A stretch of 64,000 nt of DNA. It comes from Nitrosarchaeum sp. (GTDB lineage Archaea; Thermoproteota; Nitrososphaeria; Nitrososphaerales; Nitrosopumilaceae). Shown piece by piece: positions 51,570 to 61,737 of this stretch. Made by a program: the position numbers and the translations under genes. The DNA lies in assembly GCF_035968265.1 (NCBI RefSeq), contig NZ_JAVYIM010000004.1, positions 62,001-126,000 of the forward strand. The letters are read 5' to 3'. The notes beneath the pieces were generated by a model. The model ran no database searches, had not been told where the DNA came from, and was given only the letters and a program-made list of their open reading frames with translations. The first letter of the stretch is position 1, and the number at the start of each line of letters is the position of its first letter.

Positions 51570-52607
51570 TCACATTTTTGGTTCTAGGCCTTTTGCCAAT
51601 CTCAGTGCATCCACTAAACCATCTGCATATCCTATGCTCAAAATTGCAACTTCGTCTTGACCTTCTTCGAGAAATTTCTCTGCATCTTGAATGTATAATT
51701 CAGCATTTTCAAGAATCACCTTGAATTCTTTCTGATCTTTATAGTACAGTGTAATTTCTTCTAATGCTTCTCTTACCATTGGAACATACTTTTTCATCAT
51801 TTGAATTGAAATTTTCTTTGTTTCTTCAGAGTTATCTTTTGGTTCGTCTAAACATCTTCCAAGTATTTTTAGCGCATCCGATTCTGTAAAATGAAGTCTT
51901 CCAGTTATGATAATTGTATGTGGTGGTTTACCAAAATCTATTTTTTTTAGACTAGAAATTTTTCCTGATATGATTGATTGATCTTTAAATCCAATTCGTG
52001 ATGCAACTATTGCATATGTTGATAAATTTATCACATTTCTTTTCTGTCCTTTTTCGGTTTCTATTAATCCTGCCAAGGCATCTTTTGGGTCCATAAAGAA
52101 ATCTTTGTCTTGATTGTACTCTAATAGTAATATTGTATGATTGCCTTCTATGATGTTTTTGTAAATTACATAGTATGGAGTTGTTAGCGATTTCATTTCG
52201 CTCATTATTGTTGCAATTCTTCCAACTTTGTAAAAATGAAGTCCACATTCTCCTATCATTGAGGTTAATGATGATGATGCATGAATTGAATAGGTCTTTA
52301 TTTTTTCTTGAATTGCTCTAGTTCTTAATTCTATATGTGTAGTGGCAATGTAAGGATCTCCATAAGATAACAATACTACTTTTTTTGATTTTGCATGTTT
52401 TAAAATCTCAGTCCCATCTTCAACTAGCCATCTCTTACCTTCTCTAATTTCACCTCTTGTCATTTTTTTAATTTTTAACAAGTCTGATTTTCCAATTGGA
52501 CTGGTAAATTGTTCAAGGTAAATGATGTCTGCTTTTGATAACACTTCTAGAGCTTCAACAGGAATTGATTTGGAACCTGAAATTCCTAAACCTACAAACC
52601 AAAGCAT
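51570..52607 (-). CDS. dphB: diphthine synthase fused to a DUF357 domain
   Basis: A 345-residue protein. Residues 1-255 are the SAM-dependent methyltransferase of diphthamide synthesis (MLWFVGLGISGSKSIPVEAL, LLSYGDPYIATTHIELR, IHASSSLTSMIGECGLHFYK), which modifies a histidine of elongation factor 2. The last 85 residues form a DUF357 helical domain (KKYVPMVREALEEITLYY, AEKFLEEGQDEVAILSIGYADGLVDALRL), usually a separate small archaeal protein. The start overlaps the lysK stop by one base (TAATG), so it closes the lysine operon. Confidence 0.92.
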   Translation of the reverse strand: MLWFVGLGISGSKSIPVEALEVLSKADIIYLEQFTSPIGKSDLLKIKKMTRGEIREGKRWLVEDGTEILKHAKSKKVVLLSYGDPYIATTHIELRTRAIQEKIKTYSIHASSSLTSMIGECGLHFYKVGRIATIMSEMKSLTTPYYVIYKNIIEGNHTILLLEYNQDKDFFMDPKDALAGLIETEKGQKRNVINLSTYAIVASRIGFKDQSIISGKISSLKKIDFGKPPHTIIITGRLHFTESDALKILGRCLDEPKDNSEETKKISIQMMKKYVPMVREALEEITLYYKDQKEFKVILENAELYIQDAEKFLEEGQDEVAILSIGYADGLVDALRLAKGLEPKM

Positions 52608-53734
52608 TACTGCATGTTTTTATCGTGTAGTCTTTTTAAATGGTGTATCATTCTCTTTAAAACTTCAATTCCTCTTAGATATTCGTCGATGGATACTTTT
52701 TCGTCTATCGTGTGAGCTTCATGTGGATCTCCTGGACCATATGTGACTACAGGAATGCTCCATTGGTTTCCTATTACATTCATGTCTCCAGTTCCGGTTT
52801 TTCTAATTAAAGTTGGTCGTGTATGTTCCACATCCATAACTCCTAAAGTAAATGCTCTGACTATGGCAGAGTTGTGAGGCGCCTCAAAAGGTTCTGTCTC
52901 ATCAATAATTGAATAATATGCTTCAACTTGTCTTTTTTTTGCTATTTCATTTACAAGTACAGAAATTTTTTGTTCAACTATCTTACAATTTGTATCTACT
53001 GGAATTCTGATATCAAAAGTGGACACACATTCTTTTGGTGTAACGTTGTGGCTAGTTCCACCGTTTATTTCAGTTAATGTTGCAGTTAGCAACATCCCTT
53101 TACTTTTTTTATCTTGTTCTGCCTCTAAACCCTTTTTGAGTTCTTTTGAAAAGATCATTGTTTCTTCAATTGCATTTTTTGAAAGCCAGGGTGCACTTGC
53201 ATGTGCACTATCATTAACACTTACTTTGAGATTAATTGCCAATCTTCCTTTGTATGCAATAGTGACTTGTTTAATTCCACTTGGTTCTCCAAATACTGCA
53301 TAATCTATATCCATGTGATTTTTTACTAGGTTCTTTACTCCGGTTGCATTTCCTTCTTCGTCTACGGTACCTACAAAAATCACAGTACCGTTATTGTTTT
53401 GCACTGATGCTGCGGCAAACAACATTGCCATTAATGGAGCCTTTGCATCTGAAGCACCACGACCATAAAGTGAATCTCCTTCTTTTCTAACTTTGACTTT
53501 TCCTGGAACCACATCCATGTGTCCACACAGTAATATTTTTGGTGAACCTGTACCTTTTTTTGCAATTATGTTTCCTACCTCATCTATGTGGATATCTTCA
53601 AATCCTAAATCATCGCATTTATCTGCAAGAAATTCGGCCATTGCTTTTTCGTTAAGTGATGGTGTGTACAGTCTAAGTGCCTTCTCTAGCATCTTTACTG
53701 CAAATCTTGGTGTTACTGTAAATGTTGTTTCCAA
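52607..53734 (-). CDS. lysK: LysW-lysine/LysW-ornithine hydrolase LysK (M20 family)
   Basis: A 375-residue M20 metallopeptidase. It shows LLCGHMDVVPG (first zinc His/Asp), GRGASDAKAPLMAML (bridging Asp), DEEGNATG (Glu pair), and later FGEPSG and GPGDPHEAHTIDE. LysK releases lysine or ornithine from the carrier LysW at the end of the pathway. Its position directly after lysX in the homocitrate synthase unit supports this over a plain acetylornithine deacetylase. Confidence 0.9.
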   Translation of the reverse strand: METTFTVTPRFAVKMLEKALRLYTPSLNEKAMAEFLADKCDDLGFEDIHIDEVGNIIAKKGTGSPKILLCGHMDVVPGKVKVRKEGDSLYGRGASDAKAPLMAMLFAAASVQNNNGTVIFVGTVDEEGNATGVKNLVKNHMDIDYAVFGEPSGIKQVTIAYKGRLAINLKVSVNDSAHASAPWLSKNAIEETMIFSKELKKGLEAEQDKKSKGMLLTATLTEINGGTSHNVTPKECVSTFDIRIPVDTNCKIVEQKISVLVNEIAKKRQVEAYYSIIDETEPFEAPHNSAIVRAFTLGVMDVEHTRPTLIRKTGTGDMNVIGNQWSIPVVTYGPGDPHEAHTIDEKVSIDEYLRGIEVLKRMIHHLKRLHDKNMQ

Positions 53735-53737
53735 TTC

Positions 53738-54586
53738 TCACTTTTTATTTTTTATTACGTAGTCAATCATCAAGGAAGGTATGTCTATTCCACATACTCT
53801 TACCGTATTTTTATATTCAGTTGTATTGTTAACTTCATGAACTACTAATCCTCGTTCTTCACTTTCCATCAAATCTACTCCAACTATGTCGCCTTGAACT
53901 GCGTTTTTAGCTTTTATGCACATCTCTTCCATCTCTGGCGTAACTTTGCATGGTTCTGCAGTTCCTCCAAGTGCCATGTTTGTTTTCCAATTTCCATTTC
54001 CTGAAGTTCTATAAATGGCTGCAACAATCTTATCTCCAACCATAATGGCTCGAATATCTCTTGGCGGTCTATTTACAAATTCTTCTAAATAATGAACTTG
54101 ATATATTGGATACATACTCTCTCTACTTTCAATAATTCCTTCTGCTGAATCTTTATCATTTAATTTCGAAATTAATCTTCCCCAGCTACCTACCGTTGGT
54201 TTGATGACCTTTGGATATCCATGTGATTCTAAATGTTCTACTGCGGCATCTTTTGAAAATGCTACAGCTGCATATGGTGTTGGAACTCCATATTTTTTTA
54301 ATAACATGTGTGTGAATAATTTATTTCCTGCAAAAATTCCTGTATTTAGACAATTGATAACATTTACACCCATTCCTTCAAGTGCGGCAGTTGAATGTAA
54401 ATTTCGATAGTAACTAACACACCTTTGAATTACTGGACCATAGTCTTCTGGTTTTTTATCTAAATCCAAAGCTAAATTCTTACAATCTACCATCTGTATG
54501 TTGATGTTCTTTTTTTTACCTGCTTCTAGCAGAGCTTTTTCTTCCCAACGGATGGTATCATAAAGAATTGTAATGTCAGGACTCAC
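53738..54586 (-). CDS. lysX: LysW-alpha-aminoadipate ligase LysX
   Basis: An ATP-grasp ligase of about 282 residues that joins the amino group of alpha-aminoadipate to the C-terminal Glu of LysW. Key segments are LLKKYGVPTPYAAVAF, GYPKVIKPTVGSWGR, FVNRPPRDIRAIMVGDK and VGVDLMESEERGLVVHEVNN. I choose the GTG at 54586, whose first bases form GTGA with the lysW1 stop; a TTG at 54595 would add three residues inside lysW1. It sits with homocitrate synthase, which points to the lysine rather than arginine branch. Confidence 0.88.
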   Translation of the reverse strand: MSPDITILYDTIRWEEKALLEAGKKKNINIQMVDCKNLALDLDKKPEDYGPVIQRCVSYYRNLHSTAALEGMGVNVINCLNTGIFAGNKLFTHMLLKKYGVPTPYAAVAFSKDAAVEHLESHGYPKVIKPTVGSWGRLISKLNDKDSAEGIIESRESMYPIYQVHYLEEFVNRPPRDIRAIMVGDKIVAAIYRTSGNGNWKTNMALGGTAEPCKVTPEMEEMCIKAKNAVQGDIVGVDLMESEERGLVVHEVNNTTEYKNTVRVCGIDIPSLMIDYVIKNKK

Positions 54587-54750
54587 TGCCCCCAATCCTC
54601 GCCAACCGATTGGGCAGGCTTTAATTGGAAACCTTCTGAGCCTTTTGCTAATTCAAAACTTGCACCGCATTCCGGACATGTTACAATTTCTCCTTCCATG
54701 GCATCTTTTGGAATGGAAATGTCTGCATCACATTCTTCACATTTTGACAT
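54583..54750 (-). CDS. lysW: amino-group carrier protein LysW, first copy (C-terminal Gln)
   Basis: A 55-residue zinc-ribbon carrier: CEEC and CPECG hold one zinc, then an acidic body and the LysW tail. LysW normally ends EDWGE, whose final Glu side chain is ligated to the substrate. This copy ends EDWGQ, read from GAG GAT TGG GGG CAG TGA. The start is ATG 54750; an upstream TTG/ATT-rich extension to 54783 is unlikely because it lies before the conserved SKCEEC. It is placed between homocitrate synthase and lysX. Confidence 0.9.
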   Translation of the reverse strand: MSKCEECDADISIPKDAMEGEIVTCPECGASFELAKGSEGFQLKPAQSVGEDWGQ

Positions 54751-54772: not shown

Positions 54773-55957
54773 TTATTTATCATTAATTATCTTTTTTTCG
54801 AGTCTATCTGCTAGTGGAATCTCGATTAAATCACCCATTCTGAGTTCTTTTAGACCTGTTGCCACTGCTTTGGCTCCTTCATCATCTTTTTCAAGGCCTA
54901 AAATAGACATCAAATAGGCAGCTCCAGTTTTTCCAGCTAATTCCCCAAATACAATTCTTCGAGTATTTCCAACGGCTCTAGGTGGGATTGGCTCGTATGC
55001 TGCAGGATTTCGTAGAATCGCAGCAAGATGTGTACCTGCTTTGTGTTTGTAAGCTGAAGAGCCTACTATTGGTTTTGAATCATATGGTTTAATCGAAGTG
55101 TAATCTTCAATCAATCTTGATAAATCTAACAGCATGTCTAATCTGAAATCATTTGGTGATTTGTAAAGATAAGTCAATGCAACTGCAACTTCGGCAAGAG
55201 GTGGAATTCCAGTTCTTTCTCCAATCCCATCAATTGTGGTGTGTATCTGATCTACTCCGGCATCACATGCAGAAAATGCATTGGCTACTGCAAATCCAAT
55301 ATCGTTATGCACATGCGCATCAAGCGGGACATCAATTACCTCTTTTACAGTTTTAACAAAATTATACATGCCAATAGGTCTCATAATTCCTACGGTGTCT
55401 GGTAGACTTATTCTATCTACTCCTGCTTCTTCGATTGCTTTGCATACTTTGAGTAAAAATTCTGGTTCTGCTCTACTTCCATCCTCTACAGTGAATCTGA
55501 TTTTTAATCCATGTGATTTTGCATACTCTACTGTTTCAACTGCTCTGTCTAGTGCCTCTTCTCTTGTTATTCTTAATTTATCTTTAAGATGAATATCTGA
55601 TATCCCAAGATAGGCAGCACACCACTTTGCATCACAACTTAATGAAATGTCTATGTCTTCTTTGAGAGCTCGTCCATGTGATACAATGTCTGCTTTTAAT
55701 CCTTGTTTGATAATTGTTTTAGTTGCTTCTTTGTGATCAGTTGAAACAACTGGAGAAATTTCTATTTGATCTACTCCAAAATAATCTAGCATCCATGCAA
55801 TTTGTATACGTTGTTTGTTTGTAAATGAGACTCCAGGGTGTTGTTCTCCTTCTCTTAGAGTACTATCTAACACTCTGATCTTCCTTGGATTTTTTTCATA
55901 TGCATTGTAAATGTCTGCATAGTGATTCGGATCTTTCATTACAGAAAACGTTGACAT
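54773..55957 (-). CDS. lysS: homocitrate synthase
   Basis: A 394-residue DRE-TIM enzyme that condenses acetyl-CoA with 2-oxoglutarate to begin lysine synthesis by the aminoadipate route. Shown are RVLDSTLREGEQHPGVSF, the catalytic HVHNDIGFAVANA (HxH metal site), and TIDGIGERTGIPPLAE. The C-terminal 100 residues are shorter than the regulatory domain of isopropylmalate synthase, which supports homocitrate synthase. A TATA box (TTTATA, 55973-55968 on the reverse strand) would place the transcript start after the first ATG, so the ATG at 55939 may be the true start. Confidence 0.9.
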   Translation of the reverse strand: MSTFSVMKDPNHYADIYNAYEKNPRKIRVLDSTLREGEQHPGVSFTNKQRIQIAWMLDYFGVDQIEISPVVSTDHKEATKTIIKQGLKADIVSHGRALKEDIDISLSCDAKWCAAYLGISDIHLKDKLRITREEALDRAVETVEYAKSHGLKIRFTVEDGSRAEPEFLLKVCKAIEEAGVDRISLPDTVGIMRPIGMYNFVKTVKEVIDVPLDAHVHNDIGFAVANAFSACDAGVDQIHTTIDGIGERTGIPPLAEVAVALTYLYKSPNDFRLDMLLDLSRLIEDYTSIKPYDSKPIVGSSAYKHKAGTHLAAILRNPAAYEPIPPRAVGNTRRIVFGELAGKTGAAYLMSILGLEKDDEGAKAVATGLKELRMGDLIEIPLADRLEKKIINDK

Positions 55958-56055: not shown

Positions 56056-56475
56056 TTATGTTACTTTTCGTAAAATAATCACGGTATTGGTGTCAATTAC
56101 TCCAGGAATCTTTCTTAATGCATCTATGCTACTGTTAATCTCCGAGATGTTTGTTGCACTAATTATTGTGATGATGTCGTACTGGCCTGTAATTTCATAA
56201 ACAATTTTTACACCTTCTAGTTTTGCAAGTTTTTCTGAAACTTTTGAAGTTTCAGTTGTAGAATCTACTGATATCAATACAATAGCACTTGTTGCATTTT
56301 CTTCTCCTACCTCAACTGTGAATTTTTTGATTGTTCCACTATCTACTAGGTTTTTTACTCGTCTTCTAACTGCAGATTCTGATAATTTTAGTTTCTTACC
56401 AATATCTACAAATGACTCTCTTGAATCTTCTTTGAGAAAGTTAATTATTTTTTCATCTACTTTGTCTTTATACAT
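56056..56475 (-). CDS. Lrp/AsnC-type regulator, LysM-like
   Basis: A 139-residue Lrp/AsnC protein with an N-terminal helix-turn-helix (VDIGKKLKLSESAVRRRVKN) and a ligand-binding RAM domain (VKIVYEITGQYDIITII). It overlaps the lysJ start by eight bases as the last gene of the argG unit. In Sulfolobus the Lrp protein LysM controls lysine genes, so a feedback role for lysine or arginine is likely (inference). The intergenic stretch 55958-56055 ahead of lysS is a possible target. Confidence 0.87.
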   Translation of the reverse strand: MYKDKVDEKIINFLKEDSRESFVDIGKKLKLSESAVRRRVKNLVDSGTIKKFTVEVGEENATSAIVLISVDSTTETSKVSEKLAKLEGVKIVYEITGQYDIITIISATNISEINSSIDALRKIPGVIDTNTVIILRKVT

Positions 56476-57643
56476 TGTTTTTTTGCTCCTCTATAGTTAG
56501 TACACCATCTAGGGTTTCTAAGACTTTCGCTATGTCTTCTTTCGAAATTACAAGTGGAGGAAGAATTCTGAGAATATTTCTGCCTGAATAGAGCATAAGA
56601 ACCCCTTCTTTCATAAGATTCATCAAAACATCTTTTACTTCAAATTTCAATTCAACTCCTATCATCAATCCTTTTCCTCTTATCTCTCTGATTATGGAGT
56701 GTTTTTCTTTTAATTTCTCTAATCCTTCTCTGAATAATTTTCCCATCTTTTCAGAATTTTCAATGAGATTATCTTGGGTAAGCGCTTGTAGAGTTGCAAT
56801 TCCTGCAGCACAAGAAAGTGGATTTCCACCAAACGTTGAAGAGTGCTCACCTTTACTCATTGAAGCAAGAATGTCTGGTCTTACTAGAGTTGCACCCATT
56901 GGTACTCCGCCCGCAATTCCTTTTGCCAGACATAGGATATCTGGTGCTGTATTCCAATGGTCACATGCCCAAAGTCGTCCTGTTCTACCTAATCCAGCTT
57001 GTATTTCGTCAAAAATTAGAAGAATTCCTTTTTCATTACAAAGTTTTCTCACTTCTTGTAAAAACCCATCTGGTGCAACGTTGATTCCACTTTCGCCTTG
57101 TATTGGTTCTAAAATAACAAATGCTGTGTCGTCATCAATTGTAGAGCGGAGTGATTCTATATCTCCAAATGATGCGAAAGAAACTTTTTCGACTAATGGT
57201 TCAAATGCTTTTTTGTATTTTGGATTAAATGTTAATGATAATGCGCCAAGTGATTTTCCGTGATACGATCCTTTCATTGCGACCATTCCTTTTTTACCTG
57301 TAAACTTTCTTGCAAATTTTATTGCAGCTTCAATTGCTTCTGCTCCACTATTGTTTAGATGAACTTGAGTCAAGCCTTTTGGTGCAAGACTGATTAATGT
57401 TTTGAGAAACTCTTCTCTTGTTTTATTGTACAATGAACTGTGCACAGTGATTATTTTATCTACTTGTTCTTTGATTGCATTTACAACTCTTTTATTTTGA
57501 TGTCCAACAATTGCTACACCATATCCTCCCATACAATCGATGTATTCTTTTCCATTAATGTCCCAAACATGAGCGTCTACTCCCTTTTCAATTGTAACTG
57601 GAAATCTCTGATACAAACCACCCATAAAGTCATCTTCAGTCAT
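56468..57643 (-). CDS. lysJ: LysW-lysine/ornithine aminotransferase LysJ
   Basis: A 391-residue class III PLP aminotransferase. It has YIDCMGGYGVAIVGHQN, FVILEPIQGESGINV, IFDEIQAGLGRTGRLW, and the PLP lysine in CLAKGIAGGVPMGATL. ArgD/LysJ enzymes transaminate the semialdehyde attached to LysW. Only one copy is present, so it should serve both branches. Its start overlaps lysZ by eight bases. Confidence 0.9.
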   Translation of the reverse strand: MTEDDFMGGLYQRFPVTIEKGVDAHVWDINGKEYIDCMGGYGVAIVGHQNKRVVNAIKEQVDKIITVHSSLYNKTREEFLKTLISLAPKGLTQVHLNNSGAEAIEAAIKFARKFTGKKGMVAMKGSYHGKSLGALSLTFNPKYKKAFEPLVEKVSFASFGDIESLRSTIDDDTAFVILEPIQGESGINVAPDGFLQEVRKLCNEKGILLIFDEIQAGLGRTGRLWACDHWNTAPDILCLAKGIAGGVPMGATLVRPDILASMSKGEHSSTFGGNPLSCAAGIATLQALTQDNLIENSEKMGKLFREGLEKLKEKHSIIREIRGKGLMIGVELKFEVKDVLMNLMKEGVLMLYSGRNILRILPPLVISKEDIAKVLETLDGVLTIEEQKNNV

Positions 57644-58439
57644 GTTTAATCACCGTACAATTATCGTGAGTTATGGCCGATGATATAGGATTTTCTCTTT
57701 GACCGTTTCCAATGAGTGCTTCTTTTACTCCCATGTCTAGAGCTTCAGTAGCTGCCAGTATCTTTTTTTCCATACCTGGACCTATCTTTGGTCTAATCTC
57801 TTTTGCTTCTGCTAATGTTAGATTTGTTACAAGTTTATCGTCCATTAAGAGTCCGTCTACATTTGTTATGAATAATATCTTATCGCAACCTACATTTCCT
57901 GCAACATACGCTGCAGCTCTGTCGCCGTCTACGTTGAGGAACTCTGACTCTTCGCTAATTGCAATGGGTGAAATTACCGGTGTTAGACCTTGGGCTAAAA
58001 GTGATTTAATGAGTTTCGCATTGATTTTTGTAATTTTACCTGTATATCCTCCATCAATTGCCTGTTTTCGACCTTTTTCATTGATAATTAATAATGTCTT
58101 TTTTCTTTCAGCTTCGATTATTCTTGCATCAACTCCTGATAAGCCAATTGCATTAATTCCATTTTTTTGAAGCATCTGAACAATTGTCTTGTTTATTCTT
58201 CCTGAAATCACCATTGTAAAAATCTCAGCTGTTTCTTTGTCTGTGTATCTGCTTTTTATTCCGCTAGGCGATGTTACAAATTTAGGTTCTTTTCCAAGTT
58301 GTTCGCAAACTTTTGTGACTTCTTTTCCTCCTCCATGAACTATGATTAATCCTTCTGTCTCTGCAACTTTTTTCATGTCTGCAATAGTTGATGGATGTAA
58401 ATTATCTACTACACTTCCGCCGATTTTAATTGTGATCAT
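57636..58439 (-). CDS. lysZ: LysW-aminoadipate/glutamate kinase LysZ
   Basis: A 267-residue amino-acid kinase of the ArgB/LysZ family that phosphorylates the carrier-bound side-chain carboxylate. Visible are TIKIGGSVVDN, IIVHGGGKEVTKV, FVTSPSGIKSRYTDKET, and LNVDGDRAAAYVAGNVGCDK. Lysine residues expected for ATP binding (K5 and the GPGMEKKI loop) are present. It is separated from lysY by two bases and feeds it directly. Confidence 0.9.
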   Translation of the reverse strand: MITIKIGGSVVDNLHPSTIADMKKVAETEGLIIVHGGGKEVTKVCEQLGKEPKFVTSPSGIKSRYTDKETAEIFTMVISGRINKTIVQMLQKNGINAIGLSGVDARIIEAERKKTLLIINEKGRKQAIDGGYTGKITKINAKLIKSLLAQGLTPVISPIAISEESEFLNVDGDRAAAYVAGNVGCDKILFITNVDGLLMDDKLVTNLTLAEAKEIRPKIGPGMEKKILAATEALDMGVKEALIGNGQRENPISSAITHDNCTVIKHD

Positions 58440-58441
58440 TT

Positions 58442-59491
58442 CTATACTGGAGTGAGTGGAGTATATCTCAAGCCATCCATTTCATCAAAGCCGCACATCA
58501 CATTCATGTTTTGTATTGCAGAGCCTGCTGCGCCTTTCATTAGGTTGTCGGATGCTGACATTACAATCAATCTATGATTTTCTTCATCTATGTCAAAACC
58601 TATATCACAAAAGTTTGAACCAACTACAAATTTTGGATCTGGAAATTTATACAATCCTTTTTTATCTCTAATTAATCGAACAAATCTCTCTTGACCATAA
58701 GCTTCACGATATATCTTCCATAATTCTTTTTCATCCATATCTTTTTTCATGAATGTGTGATTTGTACACAAAATTCCACGAACTACATCTACTGCATGTG
58801 GACTCATTGAAACATGAATTTTTTTACCTGCAATTTCACTTAGCTCTTGTTCTATTTCTCCAGTGTGTCTGTGTTTTGCTGGTTTGTATGGTCTGATAAC
58901 TCCGGCTCTCATTGCATGAGCAGTTCCTGAACCAGAACCTGCTCCAGATGAGCCAATCTTTGAATCTACGATAATATGTTCTGTATCAATTAAATCATGT
59001 CGAATAAGTGGTGCAAGGGCTAGTGTGGAAGTTACCGCCATACATCCTGGACAAGAAACTAGTTGTGCTTTTTTGATTGCATCTCTGTGTAATTCTGGAA
59101 CTCCGAATACTGATTTTGGCAAGTAATCTGGATGTGGATGTTCCCATCCATACCATTTATCGTAATCTGTAGCAGTATGCAATCTGTAATCTGCACTCAA
59201 ATCTATGACTTTGAGACCTCTATCATACAATGCTTTTACAATTTCAGTTGCTGTTCCATGTGGAACTGCAGTAAATACAATATCGCATTTATCTGTCATC
59301 TTATCATAATCTAATTCTGAGAAAGTTAGATCGGTAAATCCTTTCAAACTAGGTTGAATTCTGTGAAGATATTCTCCAACATGTTGTCTTGAGGTGACCA
59401 TTGCGATCTCTACATCTGGATGATTTACTAAAAGGCGAAGTGTTTCTCCTCCGACATAACCTGATGCTCCTACAACACCAACTTTCATCAT
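58442..59491 (-). CDS. lysY: LysW-aminoadipyl/glutamyl phosphate reductase LysY
   Basis: A 349-residue NADP-dependent semialdehyde dehydrogenase of the ArgC/LysY type. The Rossmann start is VGVVGASGYVGGETLRL, the catalytic cysteine is in LVSCPGCMAVTSTLAL, and GSSGAGSGSGTAHAMRAG is the family loop. It reduces the acyl phosphate made by LysZ. It lies between argX and lysZ in the operon. Confidence 0.91.
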   Translation of the reverse strand: MMKVGVVGASGYVGGETLRLLVNHPDVEIAMVTSRQHVGEYLHRIQPSLKGFTDLTFSELDYDKMTDKCDIVFTAVPHGTATEIVKALYDRGLKVIDLSADYRLHTATDYDKWYGWEHPHPDYLPKSVFGVPELHRDAIKKAQLVSCPGCMAVTSTLALAPLIRHDLIDTEHIIVDSKIGSSGAGSGSGTAHAMRAGVIRPYKPAKHRHTGEIEQELSEIAGKKIHVSMSPHAVDVVRGILCTNHTFMKKDMDEKELWKIYREAYGQERFVRLIRDKKGLYKFPDPKFVVGSNFCDIGFDIDEENHRLIVMSASDNLMKGAAGSAIQNMNVMCGFDEMDGLRYTPLTPV

Positions 59492-59516: not shown

Positions 59517-60374
59517 TTATTTCCTAACATAGTTTAAAGCAAATTCTACCATTTCTTTTGGAATATTTCGCTTTGAAACTTTTGACAGTCCTTTAAACTC
59601 TACAGTATTGTTAACTTCATGTACAACAAATCCGCGTTTTTCGTCTTCCATGATATCAATACCTAAAATTCCTCCGCCCATAGCTTTTGAGGCTTTAATT
59701 GCTATTTCTTCGATCTCTTTTGTGATCTCACATAATTCTGGATCTGCTCCCAGCGCTATGTTTGTCTTAAAACCGCCAGATGATTTTCTATACATTGCTG
59801 CTATTGGTTCATCACCAATTGTTATTACTCGAATATCTCTTGGTGGTCTGTTTATCACCTCTTGAAGGTAGAAAATTCTATCATGTGGGCTATCAGTAAT
59901 ATCTCTAATCTCAAATAATGCATCGGCAGTATCTTTGTCTTTTACCTGCATTACACCTCTACCCCAACTTCCAATGACTGGTTTGATTACTAATGGATAT
60001 CCGATTTTTTCTATATTCTCTAATGCACTTTCACTTGAAAACGAAAAATATGTTTTTGGTGTTGGTACATTATATTTTTTTAGCATTAGAGTCATGAACA
60101 TTTTATTTCCACATTGATTTGCGACAAAAAACTTGTTGAGTACTGGTACATCCATAAATTCAAGACTGGCAGTAAAATGAAGTCCTCTAAAATAACTAAC
60201 ACATCTTTCTAAAACTACATCACCAAAATCAAAATCACTTTTTTGACTATCTGTATTGATTTGGGTAATTTTAGCATCTAGCATTACTGCCTTGTGACCT
60301 AGATTCAATGCCTCTTTCTCGAGCATCTTCTCTTCTGATCTTAGGCGGTCAAACACAATACAGATTTTTGACAT
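59517..60374 (-). CDS. argX: LysW-glutamate ligase ArgX (LysX paralogue)
   Basis: A 285-residue ATP-grasp ligase closely similar in layout to the lysX product at 53738-54586: LKKYNVPTPKTYFSF, GYPLVIKPVIGSWGRGVM, VINRPPRDIRVITIGDE, GGGILGIDIMEDEKRGFVV and HEVNNTVEFKG. Its place beside argG and a normal LysW2 suggests it attaches glutamate for ornithine/arginine synthesis. The assignment of ArgX versus LysX rests on gene context; residues that set specificity were not tested. The start codon overlaps the lysW2 stop by one base. Confidence 0.86.
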   Translation of the reverse strand: MSKICIVFDRLRSEEKMLEKEALNLGHKAVMLDAKITQINTDSQKSDFDFGDVVLERCVSYFRGLHFTASLEFMDVPVLNKFFVANQCGNKMFMTLMLKKYNVPTPKTYFSFSSESALENIEKIGYPLVIKPVIGSWGRGVMQVKDKDTADALFEIRDITDSPHDRIFYLQEVINRPPRDIRVITIGDEPIAAMYRKSSGGFKTNIALGADPELCEITKEIEEIAIKASKAMGGGILGIDIMEDEKRGFVVHEVNNTVEFKGLSKVSKRNIPKEMVEFALNYVRK

Positions 60375-60541
60375 TACTCTCCCCAGTCTTCGCCTACACT
60401 TTCTGCTTGTTTTAGCTCAACAGTAGATCCATTTTTTTTTGCGATCTCAAAGTCAGCGCCACAATCAGGACAGGAGATTATCTCTCCAACAGAGGCGTCG
60501 TCTGGGATGTTAAGAGTTGCATCACATTCTTGACAGTTCAT
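60374..60541 (-). CDS. lysW2: amino-group carrier protein LysW, second copy
   Basis: A 55-residue carrier: MNCQECDATLNIPDDASVGE, then CPDCG and the canonical end SVGEDWGE. The four cysteines form the zinc ribbon and the terminal Glu is the expected ligation site. It starts at ATG 60541, overlapping the argG stop by four bases (ATGA), and ends TAATG into argX. About 60 percent of positions match LysW1 by eye. Confidence 0.93.
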   Translation of the reverse strand: MNCQECDATLNIPDDASVGEIISCPDCGADFEIAKKNGSTVELKQAESVGEDWGE

Positions 60542-61737
60542 GTTTTTGTTGACCTTTTCTTTTGTAATTTATTAGCTTCTGTTGATTGAATTCCCCACAA
60601 TTCTACAAATCCTTTTGCTAATCTTTGATCAAAAGTTGATTCTGTACCGTAAGTGGCGATCTTGTGACTGTATAGTGAATAATCTGATTTTCGTCCAACA
60701 ACGCGAATGCTTCCTTTGAAGAGCTTTAGTTTTACAGTTCCAGATACTGGTTTTTGTGATGCCTGAATGAATGCATCAAGATCTTGTTTTAATGGGTCTT
60801 GCCATAATCCTGAATAGGCAAGGTATGCCCATTCATCATCGATAATTGATTTGAATTTATTTTCATGTTTTGTATGAACCATTTTTTCTAAATCTGAATG
60901 AGCTTCGATAAGGCATAATGCTCCTGGAGTTTCATAAACTTCACGAGACTTGATTCCTACTACTCTGTCTTCTATATGATCTACAATTCCAACTCCTGCA
61001 TCTCCTGCTTTTTTGTTTACATATTCGATTAATTTTATGGGTTCGAGAATTTTTCCATCTACTGAAACTGGTATTCCTTTCTCAAATTTTATTTCCAAAT
61101 ATGTTGGCTTGTCTGGCAAATTTTTTGTTTTTACCCAAATGAATGCATCTTCTGGAGGTTCGTTGTATGGATCTTCTAGTACTCCTCCTTCAATTGCACG
61201 TCCCCACAAATTTTGGTCAATGCTGAATCTTTTTGCAACAGAGTCAATTTCGATTCCATGTTTTTTTGCAAATTCTAATTCAGTTACTCTGTCTAAATTT
61301 TTATCTCTAATTGGTGCAATGATTGGTAAATCAGAACCAGAGCGTAATGTAATGTCGAATCTAACTTGATCATTTCCTTTACCTGAACAACCATGAGCTA
61401 ACGATGTTACTTTTTCTTTTTTTGCAATTTCTAAAACTTTTTCTGCAATTAATGGCCTAGCTAATGCAGTTGCTAAACAATATTTTTTTTGATAAAGTGC
61501 ATTTGCTTTAATTGATGGAAAAATGAAATTCTCAACAAACTCTTTTCTAGCATCAATGTTGTAGTGTTTTATCACTCCAAGCTTTTTGGCTTTGGCTTCA
61601 ATTTTTTTCTGATCATCGCCTTGACCAACATCAACAGTTACTGTGATAACATCCATGTTGTATTCTTCTTGAAGATATTTTATCACAACTGATGTGTCTA
61701 ATCCGCCAGAAAATGCAAGAATTCCTTTTTCAGCCAT
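60538..61737 (-). CDS. argG: argininosuccinate synthase
   Basis: A 399-residue enzyme joining citrulline and aspartate with ATP. Typical segments are LAFSGGLDTSVVIKYL (PP-loop), LAHGCSGKGNDQVRFD, KRFSIDQNLWGRAIEGG, and GALCLIEAHSDLEKMV. It is the first gene of the LysW2/ArgX unit, which links the carrier pathway to arginine. The AT-rich gap 61738-61868 holds its promoter and the divergent small ORF. Confidence 0.95.
   Translation of the reverse strand: MAEKGILAFSGGLDTSVVIKYLQEEYNMDVITVTVDVGQGDDQKKIEAKAKKLGVIKHYNIDARKEFVENFIFPSIKANALYQKKYCLATALARPLIAEKVLEIAKKEKVTSLAHGCSGKGNDQVRFDITLRSGSDLPIIAPIRDKNLDRVTELEFAKKHGIEIDSVAKRFSIDQNLWGRAIEGGVLEDPYNEPPEDAFIWVKTKNLPDKPTYLEIKFEKGIPVSVDGKILEPIKLIEYVNKKAGDAGVGIVDHIEDRVVGIKSREVYETPGALCLIEAHSDLEKMVHTKHENKFKSIIDDEWAYLAYSGLWQDPLKQDLDAFIQASQKPVSGTVKLKLFKGSIRVVGRKSDYSLYSHKIATYGTESTFDQRLAKGFVELWGIQSTEANKLQKKRSTKT

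Follow-up and report, generated by a model that had tools for sequence, protein, structure and literature searches.

Amino-group carriers encoded with a C-terminal glutamine in the lysine and arginine operons of ammonia-oxidising archaea

The amino-group carrier proteins LysW and ArgW of Thermus, Sulfolobus, Thermococcus and haloarchaea are built to a common plan: a zinc ribbon with paired CxxC motifs, an acidic tail and a C-terminus of the form EDWG-x, encoded together with an adjacent LysX or ArgX and a LysZ-LysY-LysJ-LysK set. LysX and ArgX attach the substrate, through its amino group, to the Glu that ends LysW, using the gamma-carboxyl of this residue, and the ligases for alpha-aminoadipate carry an Asn-Thr signature, those for glutamate a Gly-type signature (PMC10433800). 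Both enzymes share fold and family with RimK, the ribosomal protein S6 glutamate ligase. RimK acts on the C-terminal alpha-carboxyl of S6, whereas LysX and ArgX use the gamma-carboxyl of LysW. A second likeness is to Pup, also a small protein joined via the gamma-carboxyl of a C-terminal Glu, for which both Gln- and Glu-encoded versions exist; the deamidation of Pup-Gln, described as “chemically equivalent to depupylation,” is carried out by Dop, the isopeptide-cutting enzyme that also frees Pup from gamma-glutamyl-lysine (PMC8223512, PMC8599861). Pup differs from LysW in being a disordered protein and a degradation tag. Its enzymes are glutamine-synthetase-like, whereas LysK belongs to the metallohydrolases and LysX to the ATP-grasp enzymes.

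The window, by which we mean the whole 64,000-nucleotide stretch of Nitrosarchaeum sp. DNA that was analysed, encodes a system of the LysW kind on its reverse strand, in the order argG - lysW2 - argX - lysY - lysZ - lysJ - lysM - homocitrate-synthase-like gene - lysW1 - lysX - lysK (Table 1). The ArgX and LysX sequences fall into separate clades; LysX has the motifs GSWGR and EYKNT, the latter being the Asn-Thr (alpha-aminoadipate) signature, and the cluster holds one LysJ/ArgD copy for both pathways. Across the whole genome (99.8% complete), the only LysW hits were LysW1 and LysW2, with no third.

Table 1. Features of the lysine and arginine gene cluster in the window.
Feature	Position	Strand	Evidence
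LysK, M20 metallohydrolase freeing Lys/Orn from LysW, candidate deamidase	52607..53734	-	TIGR01902 above cut-off
LysX, RimK-like ATP-grasp ligase	53738..54586	-	TIGR02144 326.6 bits (cut-off 275.6)
LysW1, amino-group carrier protein, 55 aa, EDWGQ end	54583..54750	-	NF041070.1 carrier_LysW_Arch 89.6 bits (cut-off 75)
LysW1 C-terminal Gln codon CAG, then TGA	54586..54588	-	sequence reading
Homocitrate/isopropylmalate synthase family protein	54773..55957	-	LysS_fung_arch 377 bits, under its cut-off 413
LysM, Lrp-type regulator	56056..56475	-	NF040947 199 bits (cut-off 180)
LysJ/ArgD aminotransferase	56468..57643	-	TIGR00707 above cut-off
LysZ, [LysW]-aminoadipate/[LysW]-glutamate kinase	57636..58439	-	NF010662 297 bits (cut-off 194)
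LysY/ArgC reductase	58442..59491	-	TIGR01850 above cut-off
ArgX, ligase paralogous to LysX	59517..60374	-	Gly-type (glutamate) signature EFKGL
LysW2, second carrier, EDWGE end (codon GAG 60377-60379)	60374..60541	-	NF041070.1 92.8 bits
ArgG, argininosuccinate synthase, cluster's first gene	60538..61737	-	named from sequence

LysW1 (55 aa, MSKCEECDADISIPKDAMEGEIVTCPECGASFELAKGSEGFQLKPAQSVGEDWGQ) has two CxxC zinc-ribbon pairs (C4-x2-C7 and C25-x2-C28), passes the LysW/ArgW carrier profile NF041070 (89.6 versus 75 bits) and adjoins a LysX-type ligase bearing GSWGR, the motif that recognises EDWGE. What it lacks is an encoded C-terminal Glu for the substrate: here, and in its relatives, the last residue is Gln, which offers no gamma-carboxyl. 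On the reverse strand, 54750-54583 ends in GAG GAT TGG GGG CAG TGA (EDWGQ), and the gene overlaps lysX by four bases (GTGA), the last G of CAG and the TG of the stop forming the GTG start of lysX. The first-pass annotation had reported EDWGQ beside lysX and EDWGE beside argX, and both readings hold on the reverse strand, with CAG at 54588-54586 and, in lysW2 (60541-60374), GAG. On its sequence, LysW1 is best classed as a homologous variant of LysW and not as a canonical carrier.

The same annotation had left room for a misread base (GAG for CAG) and for relatives that uniformly end in Glu at this locus; neither is borne out. An identical LysW1 protein, with CAG, is found in two other assemblies, and independent assemblies thereby rule out sequencing error as the cause of the Gln. 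Within the genus all 15 complete LysW1 copies found end in EDWGQ and every LysW2 in Glu, and a Gln ends LysW1 in 166 of the 167 Nitrosopumilaceae-like genomes (22 genera searched) for which this protein is listed. These 166 end in CAG or CAA plus a stop, the sole exception (G142) in GAG; over the LysW codons compared, CAG and CAA are both in use, as is each of the three stops. In the family the Gly codon before it varies over all four synonyms while the Gln stays constant, a pattern of purifying selection on the Gln and not of noise. A frameshift at the slippery-looking GGGGG before the stop, fusing LysW to LysX, was also considered and rejected, the run not being conserved (GGA, GGC and GGT occur).

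The distribution of the two ends across the ammonia-oxidising archaea is more varied. Gln on LysW1 with Glu on LysW2 is the arrangement in the Nitrosopumilaceae-like family of the window (f1), in Nitrosocaldus (f2 g23) and in f3 g26; both carriers end in Gln in Nitrososphaera (f3 g28), in g25 and in two sponge-symbiont genomes of g15; the reverse pattern, Glu on LysW1 and Gln on LysW2, is found in a Nitrososphaeraceae genus (f3 g30); and both end in Glu in f5, f2 g31, f4 and G142. A single LysW ends in Gln in Nitrosocosmicus (f3 g24) and in Glu in G039 and in outer-class genomes. On a tree of 61 genomes built from six pathway proteins, this amounts to at least four Gln/Glu changes in LysW1 and at least four in LysW2, at least eight together. 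LysW thus has Gln and Glu C-terminal variants of one small protein, as does Pup.

When the GTDB species genomes were scanned for xGEDWGQ followed by TAA or TAG, 54 stretches matched: 52 are LysW of ammonia-oxidising archaea and two are chance matches. The scan covered these two of the three stops, and for bacteria its outcome is provisional. Among the 52 is a Nitrososphaeraceae-type argG-lysW2-argX operon in a contig labelled “bacterium isolate ES-bin-123” (JACMIO010000079.1, L274), which is likely misbinned. In the sampled genomes of the phylum outside the class, only one LysW ends in Gln: a true, isolated LysW of another class (G377, L277:4310-4480), possibly of independent origin, which ends in EDWGQ and is encoded next to a LysX-like gene, with carA close by.

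Several genomes depart from the usual organisation. The lysW2 gene has moved away from argX in the sponge symbionts of g15 (L157, L159, L161) and in G018 (L144); in g15 the relocated copy ends in Gln in two genomes and in Glu in the third, a switch within a genus. G039 (L183, C1:1772500-1782500) is the converse of Nitrosocosmicus: lysX follows the homocitrate-synthase gene with no lysW1 in between, and its sole LysW ends in Glu. A third LysW copy, ending in EDWGE, stands alone in G034 (L164:1719-1883), where the 5 kb inspected showed neither a ligase nor any other gene of the pathway that could be recognised. In the single-contig genome G002 (L179:3877-4930) the similarity to lysZ is in two pieces some 500 bases apart, which may reflect a disruption or an assembly problem. 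The genes beside unlinked LysW copies (L144, L159, L164) were searched for clues to a deamidase, and nothing recurred.

The genomes with only Gln-ending carriers bear most directly on function. Five Nitrosocosmicus-type genomes (L190-L194: G238, G243, G246, G249 and G252), three of them single-contig, lack lysW2 in an otherwise intact operon (argG-argX-lysY-lysZ-lysJ-lysM-HCS-lysW1-lysX-lysK). The gap between argG and argX measures about 25-30 bases (about 30 bp in L192), and therefore no divergent LysW is hidden there; the sole LysW ends in Gln, beside an intact LysX and ArgX. An ArgJ route was searched for in the Gln-only genomes and not found. A search of the same genomes for a DapB lysine route (DapB_N) gave weak Rossmann-fold matches of 20-28 bits, two of them, in G243, narrowly above the cut-off, and none in G246; the match in the window is LysY. 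All cultivated ammonia-oxidising archaea grow chemolithoautotrophically, and Ca. Nitrosocosmicus arcticus has been kept through years of transfers in a medium whose sole added organics are urea and vitamins, in an enrichment where exchange with other organisms is possible (PMC6657660). Given a sole LysW ending in Gln, the lack of ArgJ, the weakness of the DapB matches and growth without added amino acids, Nitrosocosmicus almost certainly makes lysine and arginine on a Gln-encoded carrier, and this single carrier must serve both LysX and ArgX. That Gln-ending LysW carriers are functional is therefore strongly supported.

We then asked what the partner enzymes make of the two ends. The ligases retain all their residues for LysW recognition and catalysis: in all 120 LysX/ArgX sequences aligned, GSWG, KP, RPxRDxR, TN, ExN and other residues are invariant whatever the end of the partner, and no alignment column separates ligases with Gln partners from those with Glu partners; sister contrasts gave a shared change in at most three of seven, and a conservative one. 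Co-adaptation of the ligases to Gln was accordingly set aside, no residue following the repeated Gln/Glu switches. Each operon moreover has one LysZ/LysY/LysJ/LysK set for both carrier types, and because one set handles both, the simplest reading is that both carriers bear the same gamma linkage; on that reading the missing step is the removal of an amide.

Our preferred reading, which we hold to be somewhat more probable than not, is that LysW1 works as a carrier but is encoded as a pro-form, in which the C-terminal Gln would be deamidated once, after translation, to Glu. LysX would load alpha-aminoadipate onto the gamma-carboxyl so formed, the substrate would be processed on the carrier by LysZ, LysY and LysJ, and LysK would cleave the gamma-glutamyl isopeptide bond. 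As LysK would leave LysW-Glu, one deamidation per carrier molecule would be enough: from the second cycle onward Gln-encoded and Glu-encoded carriers would be identical, and Gln and Glu could therefore replace each other in evolution. Given the conserved and repeated occurrence of Gln across the group, LysW is probably synthesised in an inactive state and activated by amide removal, as is the bacterial tag protein Pup. Computed MH+ values for the C-terminal peptide GSEGFQLKPAQSVGEDWGQ are 2019.94 with Gln and 2020.92 with Glu (+0.984), 2163.98 with AAA on the gamma-Glu, 2163.00 with AAA on the alpha-carboxyl of Gln, and 2149.02 with Lys on the gamma-Glu.

We infer both the deamidation and its enzyme. 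LysK is a guess, a likely but unproven candidate to which we give well under even chances; it is suggested because a C-terminal Gln presents, in its side chain, gamma-glutamyl-NH2, and so the bond that LysK cuts in its simplest form. Its nearest solved chain is 5xoy, a [LysW]-lysine hydrolase (E 5.8e-50), and its putative zinc ligands in the M20 motifs (H72, D96, E126/E127, E150 and H341) are invariant. Recognition by M20 hydrolases usually involves a carboxylate on the amino acid that leaves, and since ammonia has none, LysK may deamidate poorly. No match to Pup ligase/Dop (PF03136) was found in the genome of the window, whereas the Corynebacterium glutamicum control matched. We propose tentatively, at a little less than even probability, that the encoded Gln keeps LysW inert until LysK, or a ligase, removes the amide, in a step that evolved independently of Pup/Dop.

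The main alternative to LysK is amine exchange catalysed by LysX. The ligases could use Gln directly: with ADP and phosphate bound, LysX or ArgX would open the gamma-amide to the acyl phosphate, release ammonia and let the amino acid attack; the product would have the usual gamma-glutamyl linkage, with no need of a separate deamidase. This would suit the unchanged ligases and downstream enzymes as well as the absence of a co-located extra gene, and Dop acts on Pup-Gln or Pup-Glu by a chemistry that uses ADP and Pi (PMC8599861), but such exchange is not known for RimK-type ATP-grasp enzymes and amides are poor phosphoryl-transfer substrates; we consider it unlikely. Somewhat less probable still is that LysX, as a RimK relative like ArgX, places alpha-aminoadipate in peptide linkage on the free alpha-carboxyl that a terminal Gln retains, with LysK then acting as a carboxypeptidase: no residue of the ligases changes along with the Gln/Glu state across the repeated switches, and LysZ, LysY, LysJ and LysK would face differently placed substrates in one cell. 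The idea that the Gln is never there, either because CAG/CAA at the end is read as Glu through a mischarged Glu-tRNA(Gln) or because the base is wrong, is very improbable. Archaea make Gln-tRNA(Gln) via Glu-tRNA(Gln), which makes misreading conceivable to some degree, but Gln codons stand in 166 independent genomes, no mechanism is known for recoding at a specific position, and neither one Gln codon nor one stop is peculiar to the site.

A different kind of explanation takes LysW1 out of the carrier role. In the Nitrosopumilaceae LysW1-Gln could be a scaffold or regulator of LysX, with the intermediates of lysine and of arginine synthesis all carried on LysW2-Glu, as they are on the one LysW of Sulfolobus. 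Outer-class relatives with one Glu-ending LysW and both LysX and ArgX, and G039, which has kept LysX and LysW2-Glu without LysW1, would agree with this, and it conflicts with nothing in the window's own clade. It is untenable, however, in Nitrosocosmicus (Gln only) and Nitrososphaera (Gln on both), it would require swapped roles in the Glu/Gln arrangement of g30, and LysW1 retains EDWG and both CxxC pairs; we regard it as improbable. Because of Nitrosocosmicus and Nitrososphaera, neither a mere scaffold nor a LysW2 that does all the work can serve as a general explanation. The first-pass annotation had listed four outcomes for a terminal Gln: deamidation, now the best supported; different chemistry, of which direct use of Gln is a possible form; and another role for LysW1 or lysine synthesis on LysW2, both of which fall as general explanations. 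The pro-form reading does leave one pattern unaccounted for. If Gln and Glu are equal after one cycle, they should have mixed more in the Nitrosopumilaceae, and the near-fixation of LysW1-Gln with LysW2-Glu there implies a selected difference that this reading does not supply; a role in gating or in partner discrimination is possible.

As far as we found in the literature, the Gln-to-Glu step that LysW would need is undescribed. A genome-scale model of Nitrosopumilus maritimus took ordinary LysW chemistry for granted (PMC6038301), and the string EDWGQ was not found in the open-access papers searched, which is weak evidence of absence. The C-terminal Glu has been the supposed defining residue of amino-group carriers, and it is abandoned repeatedly, in both carriers, by globally abundant ammonia-oxidising archaea that keep the rest of the pathway; LysW annotation should not rely on it. 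Either lysine and arginine synthesis in these nitrifiers includes an unrecognised activation step resembling that of Pup, or their ligases use an undescribed chemistry. If the former is true, activation of LysW by amide removal could gate the synthesis of both amino acids.
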